Shown: positions 55,688 through 63,910 of the stretch, one piece after another
How the letters are laid out: each line of letters starts with the position of its first letter
Numbering within the stretch: position 1 is the first letter of the stretch
Assembly: GCA_027487815.1 (NCBI GenBank)
Contig: JAIYCW010000072.1
Coordinates: 124,001 to 188,000, forward strand
DNA length: 64,000 nucleotides
From: Burkholderiales bacterium
GTDB lineage: Bacteria; Pseudomonadota; Gammaproteobacteria; Burkholderiales; Burkholderiaceae_E
Direction: 5' to 3'
Made by a program: the position numbers and the translations under genes
Notes under the pieces: generated by a model
What the model saw: only the letters and a program-made list of their open reading frames with translations
What the model was told of the DNA's origin: nothing
Database searches by the model: none

Positions 55688-56128
55688 GTGAGTTCAAAAA
55701 CCTACCATCCCTTGCGCGCCCTGATCCTGTGGATCGTGCTTGGCATTGTGGTTGCCCAATCACTGGTGCTGATGCCTATGCGCATGCTCAGCTTGGCGCA
55801 CACCCATGAGAGCACCAGCGGTGATCCAGCTCTGATCGAGCTGGGTTCACGGCCTCATCAACACACGACGGTGGGTGTGCACTCCCACTTTGAGGCCTTA
55901 ATCCACGAGGTCACCGATGATGTAGTTCATTGGCTGTTCCCGCAGGCCCAAGCTTCGGATCTGGCTGATTCAGCAGACGCCAGTGGTACGCAACTTGCGA
56001 GCCCGGCGTTGCAGGGCTCTGCTCCTTCGATTATTCCATCGGATAGCGTATCCAGGGTTGTGCCTCACCGGCTCCTGCCCTTCGCAATCCACACCACCGC
56101 CCCTGAATCCCCGCCTCCGCGAGCCTAG
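55688..56128 (+). CDS. Small His-rich membrane-anchored protein, copy 1
   Basis: The protein has about 146 residues from the GTG at 55688; a TTG at 55673 is the alternative, and AGGAGG lies very close to the GTG. One N-terminal membrane segment (LILWIVLGIVVAQSLVLM) is followed by a His-rich outer part: LAHTH, PHQHTTVGVHSH, then H-x-V. It ends AIHTTAPESPPPR. No family is recognised. The same layout (membrane anchor, LAHxH, HQH-x-GxHSH, IHxAPExPP tail) occurs in the gene at 62044. It precedes the ABC genes and may bind a metal for the transport system; that is inference. Confidence 0.65.
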   Translation: MSSKTYHPLRALILWIVLGIVVAQSLVLMPMRMLSLAHTHESTSGDPALIELGSRPHQHTTVGVHSHFEALIHEVTDDVVHWLFPQAQASDLADSADASGTQLASPALQGSAPSIIPSDSVSRVVPHRLLPFAIHTTAPESPPPRA

Positions 56129-56260
56129 TGCCTGCCCTGGGCCCGACGCTATTTGCTGCGGCCCTATTTCAAGACCCTTGCCAGGGGTTTCGCCCCTAAA
56201 CAGCTTGCGCGCCATGCGTACCGGCTGGGGTATAGCGCGTGTCTACTACGGGAATTCATC

Positions 56261-56974
56261 ATGTTGGTTGCCTCAGAGCTTTGTAAACGCTACGGGACTT
56301 CATTTGCATTGCACCCCTTGAATCTGACTATCGGTGCAGGCGAGGTGTTTTGCCTGCTCGGTGCCAACGGAGCAGGGAAGACCACCACGATTAACTTATT
56401 CCTCGGGTTCACTCAACCCAGCTCAGGAGATGCCAGCGTTGATGGCGTTTCCCTATCGGCCGATCCTGAGCGTGCGCGCCAAGCGATTGCCTATATCCCG
56501 GAAAACGTGATGCTCTATCCAACGCTAAGCGGCATCGAGAATCTGGCGTTCTTCGCCGGTTTGGCTCAGGCGCGTCGCTTGGCTCGCGTCGAGCTTGAAG
56601 AGTTGCTGATTCAAAGCGGCTTGAGCCCGGCGAGCTTTGACAAGCGGGTCGGTAGCTACTCCAAGGGCATGCGGCAAAAGGTAGGCATTGCAATTGCATT
56701 GGCCAAGCGTGCGCGTGCGCTTTTACTTGATGAGCCCACCTCCGGCCTCGATCCATCCGCAGCCAATGAGTTCGGCCATTTGATGCAGCACCTGGCTCGG
56801 CAGGGGCTGGCCATCCTCATGGCCACGCACGATCTATTTCTTGCCAAGCGAATCGCTCATCGCATAGGCATCATGCAAAACGGTGTGCTGGTTGAAGATA
56901 TTGCAGCGCAGGGCATTACTACCGCACAGCTCGAGTCGATCTACCTGCGCCACAGCTACGGGTGTGCAGCATGA
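56261..56974 (+). CDS. ABC transporter ATP-binding protein
   Basis: The 237-residue protein starts at the ATG at 56261; the in-frame upstream ORF extends into untranslated sequence. It has Walker A LLGANGAGKTTTINLFLG, the Q-loop region, signature SYSKGMRQKVGIAIALA, Walker B ALLLDEPTSGLDP and the H-loop ATHD. The type is ABC-2 exporter or NosF-like. It overlaps the first permease by 4 nt, so both are co-translated. Confidence 0.93.
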   Translation: MLVASELCKRYGTSFALHPLNLTIGAGEVFCLLGANGAGKTTTINLFLGFTQPSSGDASVDGVSLSADPERARQAIAYIPENVMLYPTLSGIENLAFFAGLAQARRLARVELEELLIQSGLSPASFDKRVGSYSKGMRQKVGIAIALAKRARALLLDEPTSGLDPSAANEFGHLMQHLARQGLAILMATHDLFLAKRIAHRIGIMQNGVLVEDIAAQGITTAQLESIYLRHSYGCAA

Positions 56975-58422
56975 TGCGATCCATCATTGCGATCGCCATG
57001 AAAGAGTGGCTCATCTGGCGCCGGGATCGTGTTGTCACCAGTCTTGCGATCCTGGCTAGTTTGTTGGCGGTAATTAGCGCGCTGGTCTCGGTGCAGGCGA
57101 CCGAGGCCATCAATGGCGAGCGACGAGCCGGTCAATCTCAAAGCTATCAGCAATGGGTAGAACAAGGGCCAAAGAATCCGCATAGCGCCTCTCATTTTGG
57201 GCAATACGCTTTTAAGGAACTGGGTGCGCTTTCCAGTATTGATCCCGGCGTTAATGCTTTTTCCGGTGTCACGGTATGGATGGAAGCGCATAAGCAAAAT
57301 GATGTGCGCTATCGCCCGGCACGTGATGCGAGCAGCTTGCAAAGGCTCGGAACCCTGACCCCAGCTTTTGTATTGCAAGTGCTCGCCCCACTTCTTTTGA
57401 TTCTGCTCGGGTTTGGCATGTTCTCGGGGGAGCGCGAGCGCGGTACACAATCACTGTGCTCAATCAGTGGCGTGACGCCACAAACGATGCTCGCGGGCAA
57501 ACTCCTTGCCAGTGCTGCGGTGGTCCTGCTGATGGTCCTGCCCGCAATCGCAGTGGTGAGCATTGCAGGAGACTCGCAGGCAGCACATGAACACTCTGCC
57601 CCGGATCTCTGGGCACGCGCTGGATTCATGGCTTTGGCATACCTCGCTTACCTTGGAGGATTTGCCTGCCTTGGTGCGGGAGTTTCCGCGCTCGTAAGCT
57701 CATCGCGAATCGCGCTGGTGATTTTGCTTGGCTTTTGGATCATCAATAGTTTCATGATGCCGCGATGGCTGAGTGATGTGGCTACTCAGCGTTATGCCAC
57801 ACCCTCCGCCATCGAGTTTCAGGAGAGGATTGCTCAAGCGAGAAAAGCGAGCACTGCACATGACGCCACCCATCCCGCTTATCAGGGCTTACTTAGAACC
57901 ACCCTGGCGAGATTCGGGGTGCAGGATCCAAAAGAGTTGCCTTTTGATTTTGATGGGCTAGTACTCAAGCAGGACGATGAATTTGGCTATCGCGTGTTTG
58001 ACCAGATTTATGGGCAGCTCTGGGCTCAGTTCATGCATCAGGAACGCTTCAAGACCTGGGCAGGGTTGGTGGTTCCTGCCTTGGCGATTCAGCAAACCTC
58101 GATGGGTTTGGCAGGCACTGATCTAGCCCACCATTTGCAATTTGCACGAGCCGCTGAGCAGCATCGCCGCACGATTCAAACCCTCACCGCCAATGATTTG
58201 ATCCGTAATCGACGCTTTGGGGATCGGGACTATGTTGCCGGGTCTGAGCTCTGGAAAACCATTCCTCCGTTTGATCATCAGGTGGTGTCGATTCTCGCGC
58301 CAGGCGAGCATCGCACGATGGTCGGCCTCGGGTTTCGAATGTTATTGAGCTGGTTGGCCGCTACCTCGCTGTTTGCCTGGTGGGCAGTGGCGCGTAACCG
58401 CCAATTCGGAGACGCATCATGA
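56971..58422 (+). CDS. ABC-2 permease of the DUF3526 type, copy 1
   Basis: The 483-residue permease starts at the ATG at 56971 within the ATGA overlap. It has an N-terminal membrane segment (VTSLAILASLLAVISALVSV), a large outside part, then a group of hydrophobic segments (VLAPLLLILLGFGMFSGERERGTQSL; LVILLGFWIINSFMMP) and a last one near the end. Such permeases occur with NosF-like ATPases and often near TonB receptors. The cargo is unknown. Confidence 0.82.
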   Translation: MMRSIIAIAMKEWLIWRRDRVVTSLAILASLLAVISALVSVQATEAINGERRAGQSQSYQQWVEQGPKNPHSASHFGQYAFKELGALSSIDPGVNAFSGVTVWMEAHKQNDVRYRPARDASSLQRLGTLTPAFVLQVLAPLLLILLGFGMFSGERERGTQSLCSISGVTPQTMLAGKLLASAAVVLLMVLPAIAVVSIAGDSQAAHEHSAPDLWARAGFMALAYLAYLGGFACLGAGVSALVSSSRIALVILLGFWIINSFMMPRWLSDVATQRYATPSAIEFQERIAQARKASTAHDATHPAYQGLLRTTLARFGVQDPKELPFDFDGLVLKQDDEFGYRVFDQIYGQLWAQFMHQERFKTWAGLVVPALAIQQTSMGLAGTDLAHHLQFARAAEQHRRTIQTLTANDLIRNRRFGDRDYVAGSELWKTIPPFDHQVVSILAPGEHRTMVGLGFRMLLSWLAATSLFAWWAVARNRQFGDAS

Positions 58423-59864
58423 CCCGCAAGGCAGTCACGAGCGAGCTGGCTCGCAGCGAGCTGCGCCTGTTACGCAGCGAAGGCACCGGGCGGTGGATTG
58501 CTCTCATCATGCTCATTGCATTGACCATGGCCATCGCCAATGGCTTGGCCTGGCACAAGCGCCAAGGCGAGATCGTACGAGTTGCGCAAACAGAAGAGGC
58601 GAGCCGCATTGCCCTGCAACTCACCAATTTAGAGAAGATGGCACAGGGTGAGTATTCGCCAAGCTCGGCCTTTACCAATCCAGCCAACGCCTACTGGATA
58701 GGCCATCGGCATGCAGCAAGGTATGCATTCTTGCCGCCCAAAGCGCTTGGATGGTTTGCGATTGGGCACTCGGACCTTCAACCTCCTTATATCAAGGTAT
58801 CGGGTGAAACCAAAGAGAGCTTTGCACTGAATGATGAGATCGAAAACCCTGCGAGTTTATTGACCGGGCGCTTCGACCTCAGTTTTTTTGTAGTGTTTAT
58901 TGCTCCTTTGTTGGTGATCGCACTGACTTACAACATTCTTGCTCTTGAGCGTGAGCAGGGGCGCTTGTCGATGTTGCTTGCGACCTCGGTACCCCTGGGT
59001 CAAGTGGTTCTGGCCAAGGCAGGTGTGCGGCTGGCGCTGGTCCTGCTTCCCATGGTCGTTGTCACTGGAGCGGTGCTGAGCATGCAACCACAGGCTAGCT
59101 TTGGCGAGTTTGTTGTTTGGTCAACCGCAACAATGGCTTACCTTGGATTTTGGGTGCTGCTGGCTTGTGCATTGAATTTGATGCGTACCAGTTCGTCTAT
59201 GAACGCGGTGGCTTTGGTTGGGGCATGGTTAGTACTTGCCGTGATTATTCCCTCAGCGGTGAGCACCTCAATTCATGCCATGTATCCGGTGCCATCGCGT
59301 GCTCAGATGATCAACCAAGTGCGGGCGATACAAACCGAACTTAGCGACAGTTATAGCGCGCAAAGCGCAAGCTTTTCAATCGAGCATGGCATGGATAGTG
59401 CGGAGCAAGGTGTGCTGAGCAAGCGGGATTATCTGATTGCGCGCAAACGTTTATGGGTGCAAGAGCAGGCTGGTCTGCGCATAGAAGCACTGATGCAAAG
59501 CTATCAAGATCAAATTGATCGCAGGCAAAACCAAGTGGCGGATTGGCAGTTTGCCTCGCCGGTGTTGGTGGCTTATGAGGGCTTCAACAGGCTTGCCGGA
59601 ACTCACCCATCCCGATATCGGGAATTCATTGCACAGGTGGATGACTTCCATCGCCAATGGCGCGGATTTTTCGCCCCCAAAGTGCTTAACAACATCGCGC
59701 TTCAAGCGCAAGACTACGATCAGTTTCCCCACTTTTCCTTTCAAGAGCCAACTCGCGATGCGCTCGCACAAGTCTCCATCTTTCTGATCGGCGTGCTTGC
59801 GCCCGGGCTAGTTCTCTTTGGGTTGATCCGCCTGCAAATACGGCGCTTTTATCTTCAGCCCTAA
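58419..59864 (+). CDS. ABC-2 permease of the DUF3526 type, copy 2
   Basis: The 481-residue protein is a paralogue of the preceding permease with the same layout. It has a first segment ALIMLIALTMAIANGLAW, a central block (FVVFIAPLLVIALTYNILALEREQGRL) and a final membrane segment (IFLIGVLAPGLVLFGLIRL). The EREQGRL / ERERGTQ motif is shared by both. It overlaps the first by 4 nt. Two half-permeases with one ATPase fit a heterodimeric ABC-2 exporter-type complex. Confidence 0.82.
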   Translation: MTRKAVTSELARSELRLLRSEGTGRWIALIMLIALTMAIANGLAWHKRQGEIVRVAQTEEASRIALQLTNLEKMAQGEYSPSSAFTNPANAYWIGHRHAARYAFLPPKALGWFAIGHSDLQPPYIKVSGETKESFALNDEIENPASLLTGRFDLSFFVVFIAPLLVIALTYNILALEREQGRLSMLLATSVPLGQVVLAKAGVRLALVLLPMVVVTGAVLSMQPQASFGEFVVWSTATMAYLGFWVLLACALNLMRTSSSMNAVALVGAWLVLAVIIPSAVSTSIHAMYPVPSRAQMINQVRAIQTELSDSYSAQSASFSIEHGMDSAEQGVLSKRDYLIARKRLWVQEQAGLRIEALMQSYQDQIDRRQNQVADWQFASPVLVAYEGFNRLAGTHPSRYREFIAQVDDFHRQWRGFFAPKVLNNIALQAQDYDQFPHFSFQEPTRDALAQVSIFLIGVLAPGLVLFGLIRLQIRRFYLQP

Positions 59865-59903
59865 CGATCAACCTTCAAACCCATCCACTTTACGGACAAA
59901 GAC

Positions 59904-62006
59904 ATGTTACGAGTCGCCATTCGATTGAAGCCCACAATACTGGCCTGCGTTATTCAGAGCCTGATGATGCCGGCGATAACCGCGCAGGCGCAAAGTGTTT
60001 CGTCATCCTCGGGGGCTTTGGCACCGGTCATGGTCAAAGGTCAGCGCTTCCTGGATCAGTCGAGCGCTTATTCCGCCACGACGATTACTGCGGAGGATAT
60101 TCGCACTGAAGCGGTGAGCAATCCTCAGGATTTGTTCCGGCGAGTGCCTGGTGTGGTGATCCGCAACTTTGGTTTGGGTGGCGTGGCCGACGCGATTGCA
60201 ATGCGTGGATTTGGCAGCGGTAGTCATGGCGGTGATATTGGATTGGTGCTCGATGGCATCACGCTCAACGAGGCGTTTTCTCACTCCGACGGGTATAGCG
60301 ACTTCAACGCCATCATTCCGCTTGAGTTGTCCCGAGTCGATGTGTTTCGCGGCCCAAGCTCGGCGCTACACGGCAACTACAACCGGGGGGGCACGGTGTT
60401 CTTTCAAACGCGCAAGGGCGGCAACTACACTTTAGGCGATGCCTCACTGGGTTCTTTTTCCACCCTTGATTCCCAGTTTGCCGTGGGTCGCGAAACTGGC
60501 AAGGGCGCGGGGAGCTCGTCCATTAACCTGGCCGCACAGATTTTTCGAACCGACGGCTTTCGGTCCATGAACTCCGATTTCGAAAAGCAAACTTTCTCCG
60601 GTCGCTATGCGTATCGCTTGACTGACGCAAGTGAGATTGCGCTTTCAACGCGAATCCATCGAAGCGAGGGTGAATCGGGTGCCTACCTCACCGCCAATCA
60701 GTTTGCAGTTGATCCACGCGGCGTGGATGCAAGGGTCATGGGGGATGGCGCAAAGAAAGAGTTCAAAACCCTTCGCCTGGACTTCAATACGCTGATCAAT
60801 CCTGATCTCAAGTTACTCACTTATTTGTATGGCACAACCCAGGAGTTCAACCGATACTTCACTCGCCCGGTAGTGGCGACCCCTAGTGCACCCTGGGCCC
60901 AACGTGATGAACGCTATGACCGGCAGGTGCGAGGCATTGGAGCCAGCTTGAATGGCACCGGTCTGGCCCTTGGTGATAAACGTTTCAACTGGACCGCTGG
61001 GATCGAGAGCTTGAATGAGCAAACTCAGTACCAGTTCTTTGACAACCTTAACAACCGAGTAGTCACGGCAGGGCCGGTAGCCAACCGGACCTTCGAGTAC
61101 ACCGTCAACTCGGCTTTTGTGGAAGGCGATCTTGCGTTGTCCAAGCTGTTTCGCCCCACGCTGGGTGTGCGCTATGACAGCTTTAGCGGAAGTTGCAAAG
61201 TCGATGGCCCCGAAAGTTTGGTGGATGCCGGGGGAGGCCGTCAGGGCCTTTGTGACACGCCGCTTAATGGGGTGAGCCGATTTAGTCCAAAGCTCGGATT
61301 TCGCTCGACTCTGGCGCGCGGGCTGGATTTGCGCGGCAATCTTTCCAATGGGTTCCAGTTAGGCAATGTCCGGGCACTCTTTGCACCCAACGGCGCCATG
61401 GTTCAGCCGAATATCTTCAAGCAACGCGAACTCGGTTTGACTTACTACGGAGTCGCGGGCTTGCGCGCCGATCTGACCTATTTCGAGATTCGATCCAGCA
61501 ATGAGATTCGGGAGATTCCGGCCAACTCCAATCAATTCGTCAACAGCGGAGAGACTACCCGCCGAGGCTCGGAGTTTGCGCTCAACTATGCGCCAGGCAA
61601 CAACTGGGATCTGGGCTTGAACTATGCGATTGTGGAGACTGAAATCACCGCTAATCCGACAGCTTCACTGATAGGCCGTGAGTTAACCAACGTGCCCCGC
61701 ACAAACTCCAATGTCTATCTTGCTTATGCACCTGCACAAGGGCTAGGCGCGCGTATTGATGCTCGGCATGTGGGCTCTTTCGCGGTGAATGCAGACAACT
61801 CGATTCGCGCCGAACCCTACAGCACGATCGATTTAAGCGTGAGCTATCGCGGCAAGCTGGGCAGTAGAAACTATCGGGCTTATCTGGCCGCTAACAACAT
61901 TACTGACCGTACCTTTGCCACTTCCACCTTCATCATTGGCGGGCAGCGGTTGTTTTCTCCTGGTGCAGGGCGCAACTTTTCGCTCGGTGTGCAGGCTGAT
62001 CTTTAA
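59904..62006 (+). CDS. TonB-dependent outer-membrane receptor
   Basis: The 700-residue protein has a signal peptide (about 1-30, ending TAQAQS). The plug domain starts near SSAYSATTITAEDIRTEAV and includes the LFRRVPGVVIRNFG and RVDVFRGPSSALHGNYNRG motifs. A 22-strand barrel follows and ends NFSLGVQADL, which lacks the usual terminal Phe. It imports a chelate across the outer membrane using TonB energy. Being in an ABC operon bounded by His-rich proteins suggests a metal or metallophore, not a proven one. Confidence 0.92.
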   Translation: MLRVAIRLKPTILACVIQSLMMPAITAQAQSVSSSSGALAPVMVKGQRFLDQSSAYSATTITAEDIRTEAVSNPQDLFRRVPGVVIRNFGLGGVADAIAMRGFGSGSHGGDIGLVLDGITLNEAFSHSDGYSDFNAIIPLELSRVDVFRGPSSALHGNYNRGGTVFFQTRKGGNYTLGDASLGSFSTLDSQFAVGRETGKGAGSSSINLAAQIFRTDGFRSMNSDFEKQTFSGRYAYRLTDASEIALSTRIHRSEGESGAYLTANQFAVDPRGVDARVMGDGAKKEFKTLRLDFNTLINPDLKLLTYLYGTTQEFNRYFTRPVVATPSAPWAQRDERYDRQVRGIGASLNGTGLALGDKRFNWTAGIESLNEQTQYQFFDNLNNRVVTAGPVANRTFEYTVNSAFVEGDLALSKLFRPTLGVRYDSFSGSCKVDGPESLVDAGGGRQGLCDTPLNGVSRFSPKLGFRSTLARGLDLRGNLSNGFQLGNVRALFAPNGAMVQPNIFKQRELGLTYYGVAGLRADLTYFEIRSSNEIREIPANSNQFVNSGETTRRGSEFALNYAPGNNWDLGLNYAIVETEITANPTASLIGRELTNVPRTNSNVYLAYAPAQGLGARIDARHVGSFAVNADNSIRAEPYSTIDLSVSYRGKLGSRNYRAYLAANNITDRTFATSTFIIGGQRLFSPGAGRNFSLGVQADL

Positions 62007-62043
62007 TGCATCCAATCGCAATCGGGCTGCGTATTGCTTTTTG

Positions 62044-62505
62044 ATGAAGCGCTTTAGTCCTGGCCAAACGCGTGCCGCTGCCTCTCCGCTCAAAGCGATT
62101 TGGGTATTGCTGGCGTGCGTCATGTTGATTCAGGGGCTGGTCTGGCATCAGGTGGCAATCTCGGGGCTTGCGCACAATCACCCCGTCCAACCTGACTCCT
62201 TAATCCTGAAAGTTGTTAAGCAGAATCAATCAGAGCATCAGCATGATCGGATTGGATTTCATTCGCATGATCGTACGCATTTGATCTTGGAGTCGCAATG
62301 GATGGATCCGGAGTCCCAGGCACTGAACGAGCAATTTGAGCCGCTGAAATTGGCGGTGATCGGGCTGCCGCTGCTCATGCCAGCGGAGCAAACGAATCTG
62401 GTTCGCAGATATGGTTCGGAGGCTCCAGCCCAGCAAATTCAAGCGCGTTATCAATCGATTCATCTTGCGCCTCCAGAAGACCCGCCCAAGCGGCGGCTTT
62501 CCTGA
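62044..62505 (+). CDS. Small His-rich membrane-anchored protein, copy 2
   Basis: The 153-residue protein starts at the ATG at 62044, 37 nt after the receptor stop; the in-frame ORF reaches back into the receptor gene. One membrane segment (IWVLLACVMLIQGLVW) precedes a His-rich part: LAHNHP, EHQHDRIGFHSHDRTH. It ends SIHLAPPEDPPKRR. The shared order of blocks with the gene at 55688 points to a duplicated module. Overall identity between the two is low, so the relation is judged from motifs. Confidence 0.68.
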   Translation: MKRFSPGQTRAAASPLKAIWVLLACVMLIQGLVWHQVAISGLAHNHPVQPDSLILKVVKQNQSEHQHDRIGFHSHDRTHLILESQWMDPESQALNEQFEPLKLAVIGLPLLMPAEQTNLVRRYGSEAPAQQIQARYQSIHLAPPEDPPKRRLS

Positions 62506-62526: not shown

Positions 62527-62551
62527 CCCCGCATCTTCAATCGATGCGGGG
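62527..62551. terminator. Hairpin between the convergent His-rich and PEP-CTERM genes
   Basis: CCCCGCATC / GATGCGGGG forms a perfect 9-bp GC-rich stem with a 7-nt loop. It lies between two convergent genes, so it can serve both strands. No T-run follows on either strand. Confidence 0.65.
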
Positions 62552-62561
62552 CTAACGTTGT

Positions 62562-63140
62562 CTAGATCTTGCGGCGGCTAAAGGCAGCCAGACCCAAACC
62601 CAGGCTCAGTAGAGCCAGCGTAGCTGGCACCGGCACCGCAATCGGGCTGAGTGAGAAGTTGTACTTCGCCGCCCCTATCGCATCGGAGTCGAGGGCAAAC
62701 AATACCTCGAGAGTTTCCGATCCTGCATCGGTCATGAAGGTTCCGCTGGAATCCGTGATGATGTCGAAGGGAAGATTATTCAGAAAACTAAAAAGCGTCA
62801 GTGGTGCGGATGGGACGATAGCCTTATCCAAGGGCTCGAATGAAAAGTCGAGTTTGAATTGATAGACCGTGTCGACAAGCAGCTTGCCAAAGCTCACCAC
62901 ATCGCCTGGATCGCGTTCATCGCCCGGGTTCATTCGTGACACCTGGCCTGAGAAGACCACTTGGCTGCCTGCGGCCGAGGTGGCCTGGCAAGCGGGATCT
63001 GCAGGATCAAACAAAACATTGGCAGCGTCGCCTGAAGGGCAGGCTGTTGCCTCGTTAAAACTAACTGGTGCTGCGCTTACGCATTGCACTGCCGCCAGCA
63101 GCGCGACGGCACTGCCAATAGTGGAGCTTTTTTTGAACAT
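62562..63140 (-). CDS. PEP-CTERM domain protein
   Basis: The 192-residue secreted protein has a signal sequence (about 1-23, ending VSAAP) from the ATG at 63140; longer in-frame starts are possible. It ends in the PEP-CTERM sorting signal VPVPATLALLSLGL followed by AFSRRKI. These signals are recognised by exosortase for cell-surface sorting. The middle part has no recognised domain. The matching exosortase gene is not in the window. It lies divergently from the ECF sigma gene. Confidence 0.85.
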   Translation of the reverse strand: MFKKSSTIGSAVALLAAVQCVSAAPVSFNEATACPSGDAANVLFDPADPACQATSAAGSQVVFSGQVSRMNPGDERDPGDVVSFGKLLVDTVYQFKLDFSFEPLDKAIVPSAPLTLFSFLNNLPFDIITDSSGTFMTDAGSETLEVLFALDSDAIGAAKYNFSLSPIAVPVPATLALLSLGLGLAAFSRRKI

Positions 63141-63316
63141 GACGGACTTTCGAAAATGAGGTGAATGAGAGAAGCACACGCCAAAGGGCATATAGGTGTT
63201 ACGCGGTGAATCCATTTTTGGATTCGCTACGTAAGTGCACTACATGACCTATCGATGAATTGGGCTCGGGTTGTCGAGCCGCTTTGGCCTTCCTCAAACG
63301 TGCCCTACCTCACCTC

Positions 63317-63910
63317 ATGATGCGCACCTTGCCGACCGATTTGCAGTTGATCGAATGGCTTAAGCAAGCGGCCCAGCGTAATCCCTTGGCCCTGCGCCTC
63401 CTCTATGACGCCACCAGCACGCGTCTTTACTCCATTGCTTTGCGGGTGGTCGGCAATCGGGAACTCGCCGAGGATGTCTTGCAAGATGCTTATGTGACGA
63501 TTTGGCGTGCGGCCGGTGACTATCGTGAAGCCATCAGCCCGCCCATGGTCTGGATGGGGCTGATTGTCCGCAGCCGGGGGCTGGATCTCCTGCGGCGTCG
63601 ATTGGCCGATCGGTCACTTGGCAGTTCGTCGTGGGACGAAGATTTCCAGGAAAACTATCCGGGGGGCGGCATGGATCCCGTGGAGTTTGTGGATCGCTCG
63701 GAGCAGGCCAAGGCGCTACACCGGTGCCTTAAACAACTCGATACGCGCCATCGGGGTCTTCTCCTGGCAGCCTATTTTAATGAGTCAAGTCATAGCGAGT
63801 TAGCCAAACAATTCGATATGCCTCTGGGGACAGTGAAATCCTGCATTCGCCGGGCTTTAGTTCAATTACGCACTTGCATGAAGAGCGATGGGACAAAGGA
63901 TCTTCCTTGA
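63317..63910 (+). CDS. ECF-family RNA polymerase sigma factor
   Basis: The 197-residue sigma-70 factor starts at the ATG at 63317; a TTG at 63260 would add 19 residues. Region 2 is LRLLYDATSTRLYSIALRVV ... AEDVLQDAYVTIWRAAG, and region 4 is LLAAYFNESSHSELAKQFD then GTVKSCIRRALVQL. Two-domain ECF factors without other domains are usually held by an anti-sigma factor in the next gene. It is divergent from a PEP-CTERM gene and may control its neighbours; that is inference. Confidence 0.9.
   Translation: MMRTLPTDLQLIEWLKQAAQRNPLALRLLYDATSTRLYSIALRVVGNRELAEDVLQDAYVTIWRAAGDYREAISPPMVWMGLIVRSRGLDLLRRRLADRSLGSSSWDEDFQENYPGGGMDPVEFVDRSEQAKALHRCLKQLDTRHRGLLLAAYFNESSHSELAKQFDMPLGTVKSCIRRALVQLRTCMKSDGTKDLP

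Follow-up and report, generated by a model that had tools for sequence, protein, structure and literature searches.

A TonB-dependent, ABC-powered module, probably for nickel uptake, between two histidine-rich paralogues of a Burkholderiales bacterium

The analysis of a 64,000-nucleotide stretch of a Burkholderiales genome (contig JAIYCW010000072.1, positions 124,001 to 188,000; hereafter the window) outlined a run of six co-directional genes that probably constitutes a TonB-dependent uptake module powered by an ATP-binding cassette (ABC) complex. Its substrate would be a transition metal in short supply, or a chelate of such a metal, with nickel as the likeliest candidate. Open reading frame calling placed all six genes on the forward strand. 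The run begins with a small histidine-rich protein, here termed HisN (55688..56128, +; 146 amino acids from a GTG start, the longest form of the frame opening at TTG 55673). It continues with an ABCA/NosF-like ATPase (56261..56974, +), two permeases of the DUF3526/ABC-2 type, the first of them NosY-like (Perm1, 56962..58422, +; Perm2, 58419..59864, +), and a TonB-dependent receptor of the siderophore or chelate type (59904..62006, +). A paralogue of HisN, termed HisC, forms the 3' end of the module (62044..62505, +; 153 amino acids, with its ATG inside a longer mechanically called frame).

In the proposed mechanism, the outer-membrane receptor would admit the metal to the periplasm, either free or as a chelate, and the NosF/NosY-like ATPase and the two DUF3526 permeases would carry it onward without an operon-encoded binding protein, no separate substrate-binding protein being present in the module. 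Perm1 may bind the metal at residues H74, H78, E108 and H110. HisN and HisC, whose putative metal motifs contain histidine only, would be anchored and would hold metal at the periplasmic face as a buffer, for hand-over or as a sensor. We infer the inward direction of transport from gene context alone.

Nickel-linked relatives of the module

A 33-row tree of Perm1 sequences placed the window in an 11-row branch (support 99/98) with the loci L012-L017, L042-L044 and L018. The branch includes Nitrosospira, Nevskia and Methylobacter, and the window lies nearest to the Nitrosospira and Nitrosovibrio rows (87/87). The perfect palindrome GTATGA-N15-TCATAC was detected four times in the 145,672 bases of nine of these loci (L012-L017 and L042-L044) and not once in 680,394 other bases, a background in which some sequence is duplicated or overlaps, three short stretches come from branch genomes (L034-L036) and the L06x and L07x loci are excluded. 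With one mismatch allowed, the counts were five and one. NikR sites are given as GTATGA-N16-TCATAC for Escherichia coli (PMC7055735) and as GTATGAT-[N13/14]-ATCATAC for enterobacteria (PMC545781) in the available parts of these sources.

The perfect sites occupy promoter positions in three of the nine loci. One ends 45 bases before the receptor start in L012, and another lies in L042, 33 bases before a gene for 97 amino acids that precedes a tonB-like gene (labelled by eye). The remaining two are in L044 where, together with a one-mismatch site, they separate the module side from the tonB/nikR side; the NikR encoded near this module is confirmed by Pfam. Perfect GTATGA-N8-TCATAC pairs, absent from the same background, precede the first module gene in L013 (7170-7189) and L014 (4910-4929), where no N15 site was found; judged from their sequence, they are candidate NikR-like half-sites at an unusual spacing. 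Perfect half-site pairs at spacings of 9-14 or 16-23 were not found. Neither the N15 nor the N8 form was detected in L015, L016, L017 or L043, the L016 contig starting inside the ATPase gene with the promoter off the contig.

NikR is encoded in eight of ten genomes, namely the window's own and those of the nine loci (it is missing from the window's own and from Methylobacter), against 41 of 369 genomes of the class. Among class genomes carrying a branch module, NikR was present in three of four, two of these three being of the same genus, compared with 38 of the other 365, on the assumption that two draws of 369 genomes are identical. Since NikR-type operators occur in the relatives and NikR is found in their genomes at this frequency, the branch is most likely for nickel; the nickel label was assigned after sites had been seen in some members, and is hence not independent of them.

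Further nickel-related genes occur in these genomes. The urease alpha subunit is encoded in seven of the ten, the window's own included, and a gene of the nickel-associated NicO family follows Perm2 in L015. The window's own urease cluster (G000:C35, L074 4808-10322, -; alpha subunit by Pfam) has a short histidine-containing membrane protein beside a ureG-like gene, as judged by eye. In L043, genes for ExbB, ExbD and TonB adjoin the module according to Pfam, and L042 and L044 have tonB-like genes by eye; modules of this branch can therefore adjoin their own TonB/ExbB/ExbD energiser genes. TonB-dependent receptors for nickel have been described (PMC11247825), as have the NikR-regulated importers NikABCDE and NikMNQO (PMC7055735, PMC545781). 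As far as the available parts of these descriptions go, the latter share with the present case the NikR-type operator before the relatives' operons and the nickel demand of urease, and differ in the type of ABC transporter. Within the open-licence literature, no description of NikR paired with a DUF3526 permease and no published account of a nickel role for this branch were found.

Transporter, receptor and gene spacing

Pfam matches confirmed the initial annotation in placing one ATPase, two DUF3526 permeases and a TonB receptor between the histidine-rich proteins. The ATPase (ABC_tran, 99 bits) retains intact in the alignment what we take to be the Walker A, YSKGMRQ signature, Walker B and H-loop motifs, and its profile matched the ABCA family first, with NosF close behind. 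The two permeases match DUF3526 with 95 and 69 bits. The best solved relative of the Perm1 profile is NosY (E 5e-7), and the predicted Perm1 structure, from an 18-row alignment, has a predicted local distance difference test (pLDDT) value of 85 and a predicted template modelling (pTM) score of 0.85. Its first 11 PDB matches are all permease chains of the NosDFY type, six of them at E <= 0.001, with loose whole-chain superposition (template modelling score 0.41 by query length). Residues H74, H78, E108 and H110 are kept in all 22 aligned sequences, from several branches, and would form a candidate metal site outside the membrane.

The NosDFY(L) complex delivers copper to nitrous oxide reductase. 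The window's module resembles it in the profile and fold matches of Perm1 and in the proximity of its ATPase to the NosF profile. It differs in that the permeases are almost twice as long as NosY, are paired and carry the DUF3526 domain, and in that the module has no recognised homologue of NosD or NosL. An earlier suggestion of a mechano-type ABC complex fits the NosY match as an analogy.

The receptor contains Plug (73 bits) and TonB barrel (120 bits) domains, and scores 143 bits against the TonB-siderophore class, below the cut-off of 223.5. It is 34-37% identical to four receptors found beside nickel-branch modules, and is matched weakly by the receptors of zinc-linked branches. A same-strand TonB receptor lies within 4.5 kb of the module in 22 of 35 loci, the window included. 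This count is rough, as the model was trained on 11 receptors from the same loci and contig ends shorten some of them; it leaves out L031, where the receptor is on the other strand, and undetected receptor-like large frames seen by eye in L019, L022 and L023.

Tight overlaps, also noted initially, hold for part of the run: the ATPase and Perm1 genes overlap by 13 nucleotides and the two permease genes by four, and no other pair overlaps. HisN and the ATPase are separated by 132 nucleotides (56129..56260, +), Perm2 and the receptor by 39, and the receptor and HisC by 37. DUF3526 is present in six of 121 genomes of relatives and a Perm1 match at E 1e-20 in nine of 369 genomes of the class, the window's own included in both counts. 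The scan of genome contigs yielded 13 named module loci, and the plasmid collection 12 records, eight of which were examined.

HisN and HisC

The proposal of two related, anchored histidine-rich proteins with common motifs was borne out by sequence comparison. HisN and HisC align with a blastp E of 4e-8 and 28% identity (41 of 146 columns identical), and their local score of 109 was equalled by none of 2000 shuffles, the maximum being 90. When every histidine was masked, five of 2000 shuffles reached the HisN-HisC score, so their kinship exceeds a common richness in histidine. Both present a hydrophobic N-terminal segment, consistent with export or membrane insertion (hydropathy maximum 2.6 in HisN and 2.1 in HisC), followed by LAHxH, HQHxxxGxHSH and a tail resembling IHxxxPExPPxR. 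The metal motif of HisN is of histidine only, and PPP stands two residues before its C-terminus.

Neither protein matched any Pfam or NCBIfam family. A profile built from the pair was run against 399 genomes of the order, with at most nine candidates scored per genome, and against 27 module-bearing genomes. Apart from the window's own genome, the remaining 398 and 26 gave no match that was judged convincing; four matches in the second set had E values of 0.02-0.55. A match in genome G198 (E 0.005) was taken as chance; it overlaps a frame labelled by eye as NAD-kinase-like. HisC, the only query used there, had no tblastn match in the plasmids. The expectation that the pair always travels with the ABC/TonB set hence failed, and the pair has so far been seen only in the window's genome. 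At other module loci, some have a DUF2946-like or similar small protein instead, and in many none was seen. A survey made partly by eye and incomplete recorded anchored small proteins that combine a C-terminal R-x-PP with a motif of His or Cys at seven of the 34 other loci (L021, L023, L045, L047, L053, L055 and L056) and at none of the nine nickel-branch loci; those of L021 and L055 pass the DUF2946 cut-off (23.7 bits).

These small proteins raise the possibility, to which we give appreciable but lesser weight, that HisN is a leader peptide similar to CutF or CruR, whose nascent chain would sense metal through its histidine motifs while the ribosome slows at the Pro-Pro tail, controlling the transporter genes; HisC would then be a paralogue whose role was lost or changed. 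Such a leader would suit nickel or zinc. In the available parts of the sources, DUF2946 is the family of CruR, an upstream reading frame that senses copper and is thought to undergo arrest at RAPP, with 45 residues published between metal motif and tail (PMC9426467). CutF is a related case, with His-only CutF-like proteins reported beside HupE/UreJ (PMC9973294). As described there, CruR and CutF resemble HisN in being small exported proteins that combine a metal motif with a Pro-Pro C-terminus and are encoded upstream of metal-transport genes that include TonB receptors.

HisN itself has the N-terminal membrane segment, His-only motifs and a PP within its last 15 residues, and is the first gene of the module, ahead of the 132-nucleotide gap. 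Its values fall inside all the CutF-like filters (PMC9973294: fewer than 150 amino acids, PP in the last 15 residues and a same-strand gene within 1000 nucleotides), with 146 amino acids and the next such gene 132 nucleotides on. HisC has 153 amino acids and is followed by a gene on the other strand. Of 267 window frames of 60-219 amino acids, HisN alone passes the small-protein filter; HisC was missed because its mechanical frame starts too early. Furthermore, two modules of the same type, those of Eleftheria and L021, have a protein of the DUF2946 (CruR) family upstream of the receptor (28.9 and 26.4 bits, respectively).

The spacing of the motifs argues otherwise. From the last HxH to the last PP there are 78 residues in HisN and 74 in HisC, against exactly 41 in six His-only proteins linked to HupE. 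Of five DUF2946-like proteins, four have 50-53 residues between CxxC and PP and one has 62. The six HupE-linked proteins (L076-L081, two of them identical) were found upstream of HupE_UreJ_2 at six of 30 loci examined among the 63 of 200 relatives with this family. Downstream of five of them, a pattern check identified a HupE-like frame on the same strand; for L079, which the pattern missed, its position comes from the family match. The invariant spacing of the six hints at a ruler-like arrest mechanism.

HisN and HisC contain no CxxC, had no DUF2946 (PF11162) match at E up to 10, and showed no significant profile similarity to the His-only CutF-like or the DUF2946-like proteins, the short alignments making this a weak test. 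Composition-preserving alignment gave z values of 2-5 scattered over few of 26 pairs, which was judged insufficient for homology. The RNA of the gap between HisN and the ATPase has no unusual structure, the fold of 56100-56300 being weaker than that of shuffles (z +1.67). No Rfam family matched at gathering scores in seven relatives' loci and the window's own 20-kb stretch, so the scanned loci hold no known metal or cobalamin riboswitch. HisC, moreover, keeps the same tail at the operon end, where a leader would control nothing, which points to a function of the finished protein.

Compared with CruR and CutF as described, the pair thus differs in having His-only motifs and no DUF2946 match, in the far greater distance between motif and tail, and in the presence of another copy where the operon ends. 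Because of the spacing and the lack of a family match, neither protein is classed as CutF-like; HisN could nonetheless work in the manner of CutF. Anchored metal-binding proteins are the slightly likelier reading of the pair.

Ligand and genomic setting

Metal uptake is supported as a theme of the wider module family, with zinc as the context elsewhere. L028 and L030 share one gene order, in which the receptor is followed by the ATPase, Perm1 and Perm2, a Fur-family gene and then znuC-, znuB- and znuA-like genes (Fur and ZnuA confirmed by Pfam in L028, not in L030). A MerC gene lies inside the L045 run; L031 has a Fur-family gene (Pfam) and a COG0523-like gene, and L029 a COG0523-like gene, both COG0523 labels being by eye. 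A scan of all module loci except L050 and L052 with the published 13-base Zur form GTTAT-N3-ATAAC detected a perfect site before the ATPase in L022, and one-mismatch sites in L045, L046 and L049 that precede, or lie at the start of, the gene for the receptor or for a small protein. Further one-mismatch sites without an established position of that kind numbered five in loci of other branches, plus one within the nickel branch that lies far downstream in L012.

The available description of Caulobacter crescentus reports that znuGHI encodes one ATPase and two permeases of the ABC-2 type, is repressed by Zur in the presence of zinc and adjoins the receptor gene znuK (PMC4176598), and a review lists ZnuGHI as an ABC-type zinc uptake system (PMC6103462). 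The window's ABC-receptor core has this same layout of one ATPase, two ABC-2 permeases and an adjoining TonB-dependent receptor gene, which makes the initial statement that no described system has this set too strong. Of 14 control genomes, that of Caulobacter vibrioides alone carried DUF3526, in a gene that may be CC1519/CC1520 (znuH/znuI).

The module might accordingly be a zinc scavenger of the ZnuGHI/ZnuK type with HisN and HisC as zinc-binding periplasmic proteins, and their histidine motifs would suit zinc too. We regard this as unlikely, given that the window's branch is set apart at 99/98 support and carries NikR-type sites, and that the receptors of the zinc branches match the window's only weakly. 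No Zur-like sites precede the modules or receptors of the nickel branch, and the window itself has none at up to one mismatch between 53600 and 62600, the three at two mismatches all lying inside genes. Relative to ZnuGHI/ZnuK as described, the window further differs in its two histidine-rich paralogues and in its receptor, which is of the chelate type and is encoded downstream within the run.

Less probable still is that the module handles a siderophore or other chelate for iron, with the ABC complex recovering or exporting the chelator. Such a role would agree with the resemblance of the receptor to the TonB-siderophore class, to FoxA as much as to CntO, with the ABC-2 fold, common among exporters, and with a PepSY_TM protein after the module in L016. 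DUF4374 proteins are linked to siderophore uptake, and one lies beside a DUF3526 module and receptor on an Aureibacter plasmid (L057); the ABC module may accordingly have additional ligands. The NikR-type sites of the branch speak against an iron chelate (Fur sites were not searched for), and no chelator biosynthesis gene was recognised beside the window's module, ten proteins having been checked by family search and the rest by eye.

Several observations weigh against nickel uptake. Perfect N15 sites are absent from six of the nine relatives' loci (the L016 promoter not being visible), and at two mismatches the counts, 10 and 8, no longer separate the nine loci from the background, so that the strict sites alone are informative. 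Between 53600 and 62600, the window has no NikR-type site at up to two mismatches and spacings of 13-17, leaving both NikR and Zur-like sites undetected at its module, and NikR was not found in its own genome (95.6% complete). The end branch of the window's Perm1 is long (1.25), so its ligand may have shifted. E108 and H110 lie near or in a part of the Perm1 model with pLDDT below 50, and the permease fold does not show import, being shared by exporters and NosFY. The best solved matches of the receptor, entries labelled CntO and FoxA, are tied at 66.5 bits, followed by YncD/PqqU; this indicates a chelate type and leaves the metal open, and the CntO match is not counted for nickel, a small loss that the half-site pairs of L013 and L014 roughly offset. 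No receptor was found beside the module in L013, L015 and L017.

Nickel uptake nevertheless remains the reading we favour, with moderate confidence. As neither NikR nor an operator was detected in the window's own genome, specificity for nickel there is inferred from kinship. The initial proposal of a metal or metallophore module is in turn supported by the kin, through the zinc context elsewhere and the NikR-type operators of the window's branch. Overall, the sequence evidence suggests a ZnuGHI-like, NosY-like metal module, linked to nickel through the operators of its relatives, with a histidine-rich pair in addition.

The module is preceded by leuA, 49 bases upstream of HisN. A perfect 9-bp hairpin identified by eye at 62527..62551, absent from the terminator scan list, lies between HisC and a convergent gene for a PEP-CTERM sorted protein (62562-63215, -), and is likely the end of the transcription unit; the PEP-CTERM gene adjoins an extracytoplasmic function (ECF) sigma factor gene (63260-63910, +). 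Just past the window end, a HupE_UreJ_2 gene (Pfam) was identified on the same contig (G000:C85 188016-192258; L051 16-4258), in a run that by eye includes DUF4331-type, small and TPR-like proteins and is followed by an ECF sigma/anti-sigma-like pair. It is possibly a second nickel or cobalt gene near the module.

A bolder and, in our view, doubtful proposal is that the window's module represents the nickel branch of an ABC family that resembles NosY, needs no binding protein and works with TonB receptors. In the window's lineage, a duplicated His-only nascent-chain metal sensor would have replaced NikR, with HisN as the leader copy and HisC converted to a resident metal binder. If true, one type of machine would serve copper (NosFY), zinc (ZnuGHI) and nickel (the window's branch). 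Independently of that proposal, the favoured reading connects the uncharacterised permease domain DUF3526 with both zinc and nickel and, through its sequence and fold matches, with the copper machine NosFY. How an exporter-type ABC complex without a binding protein helps metals inward thereby becomes a testable question, and HisN and HisC offer a concrete pair for testing nickel or zinc sensing by His-only leader peptides.

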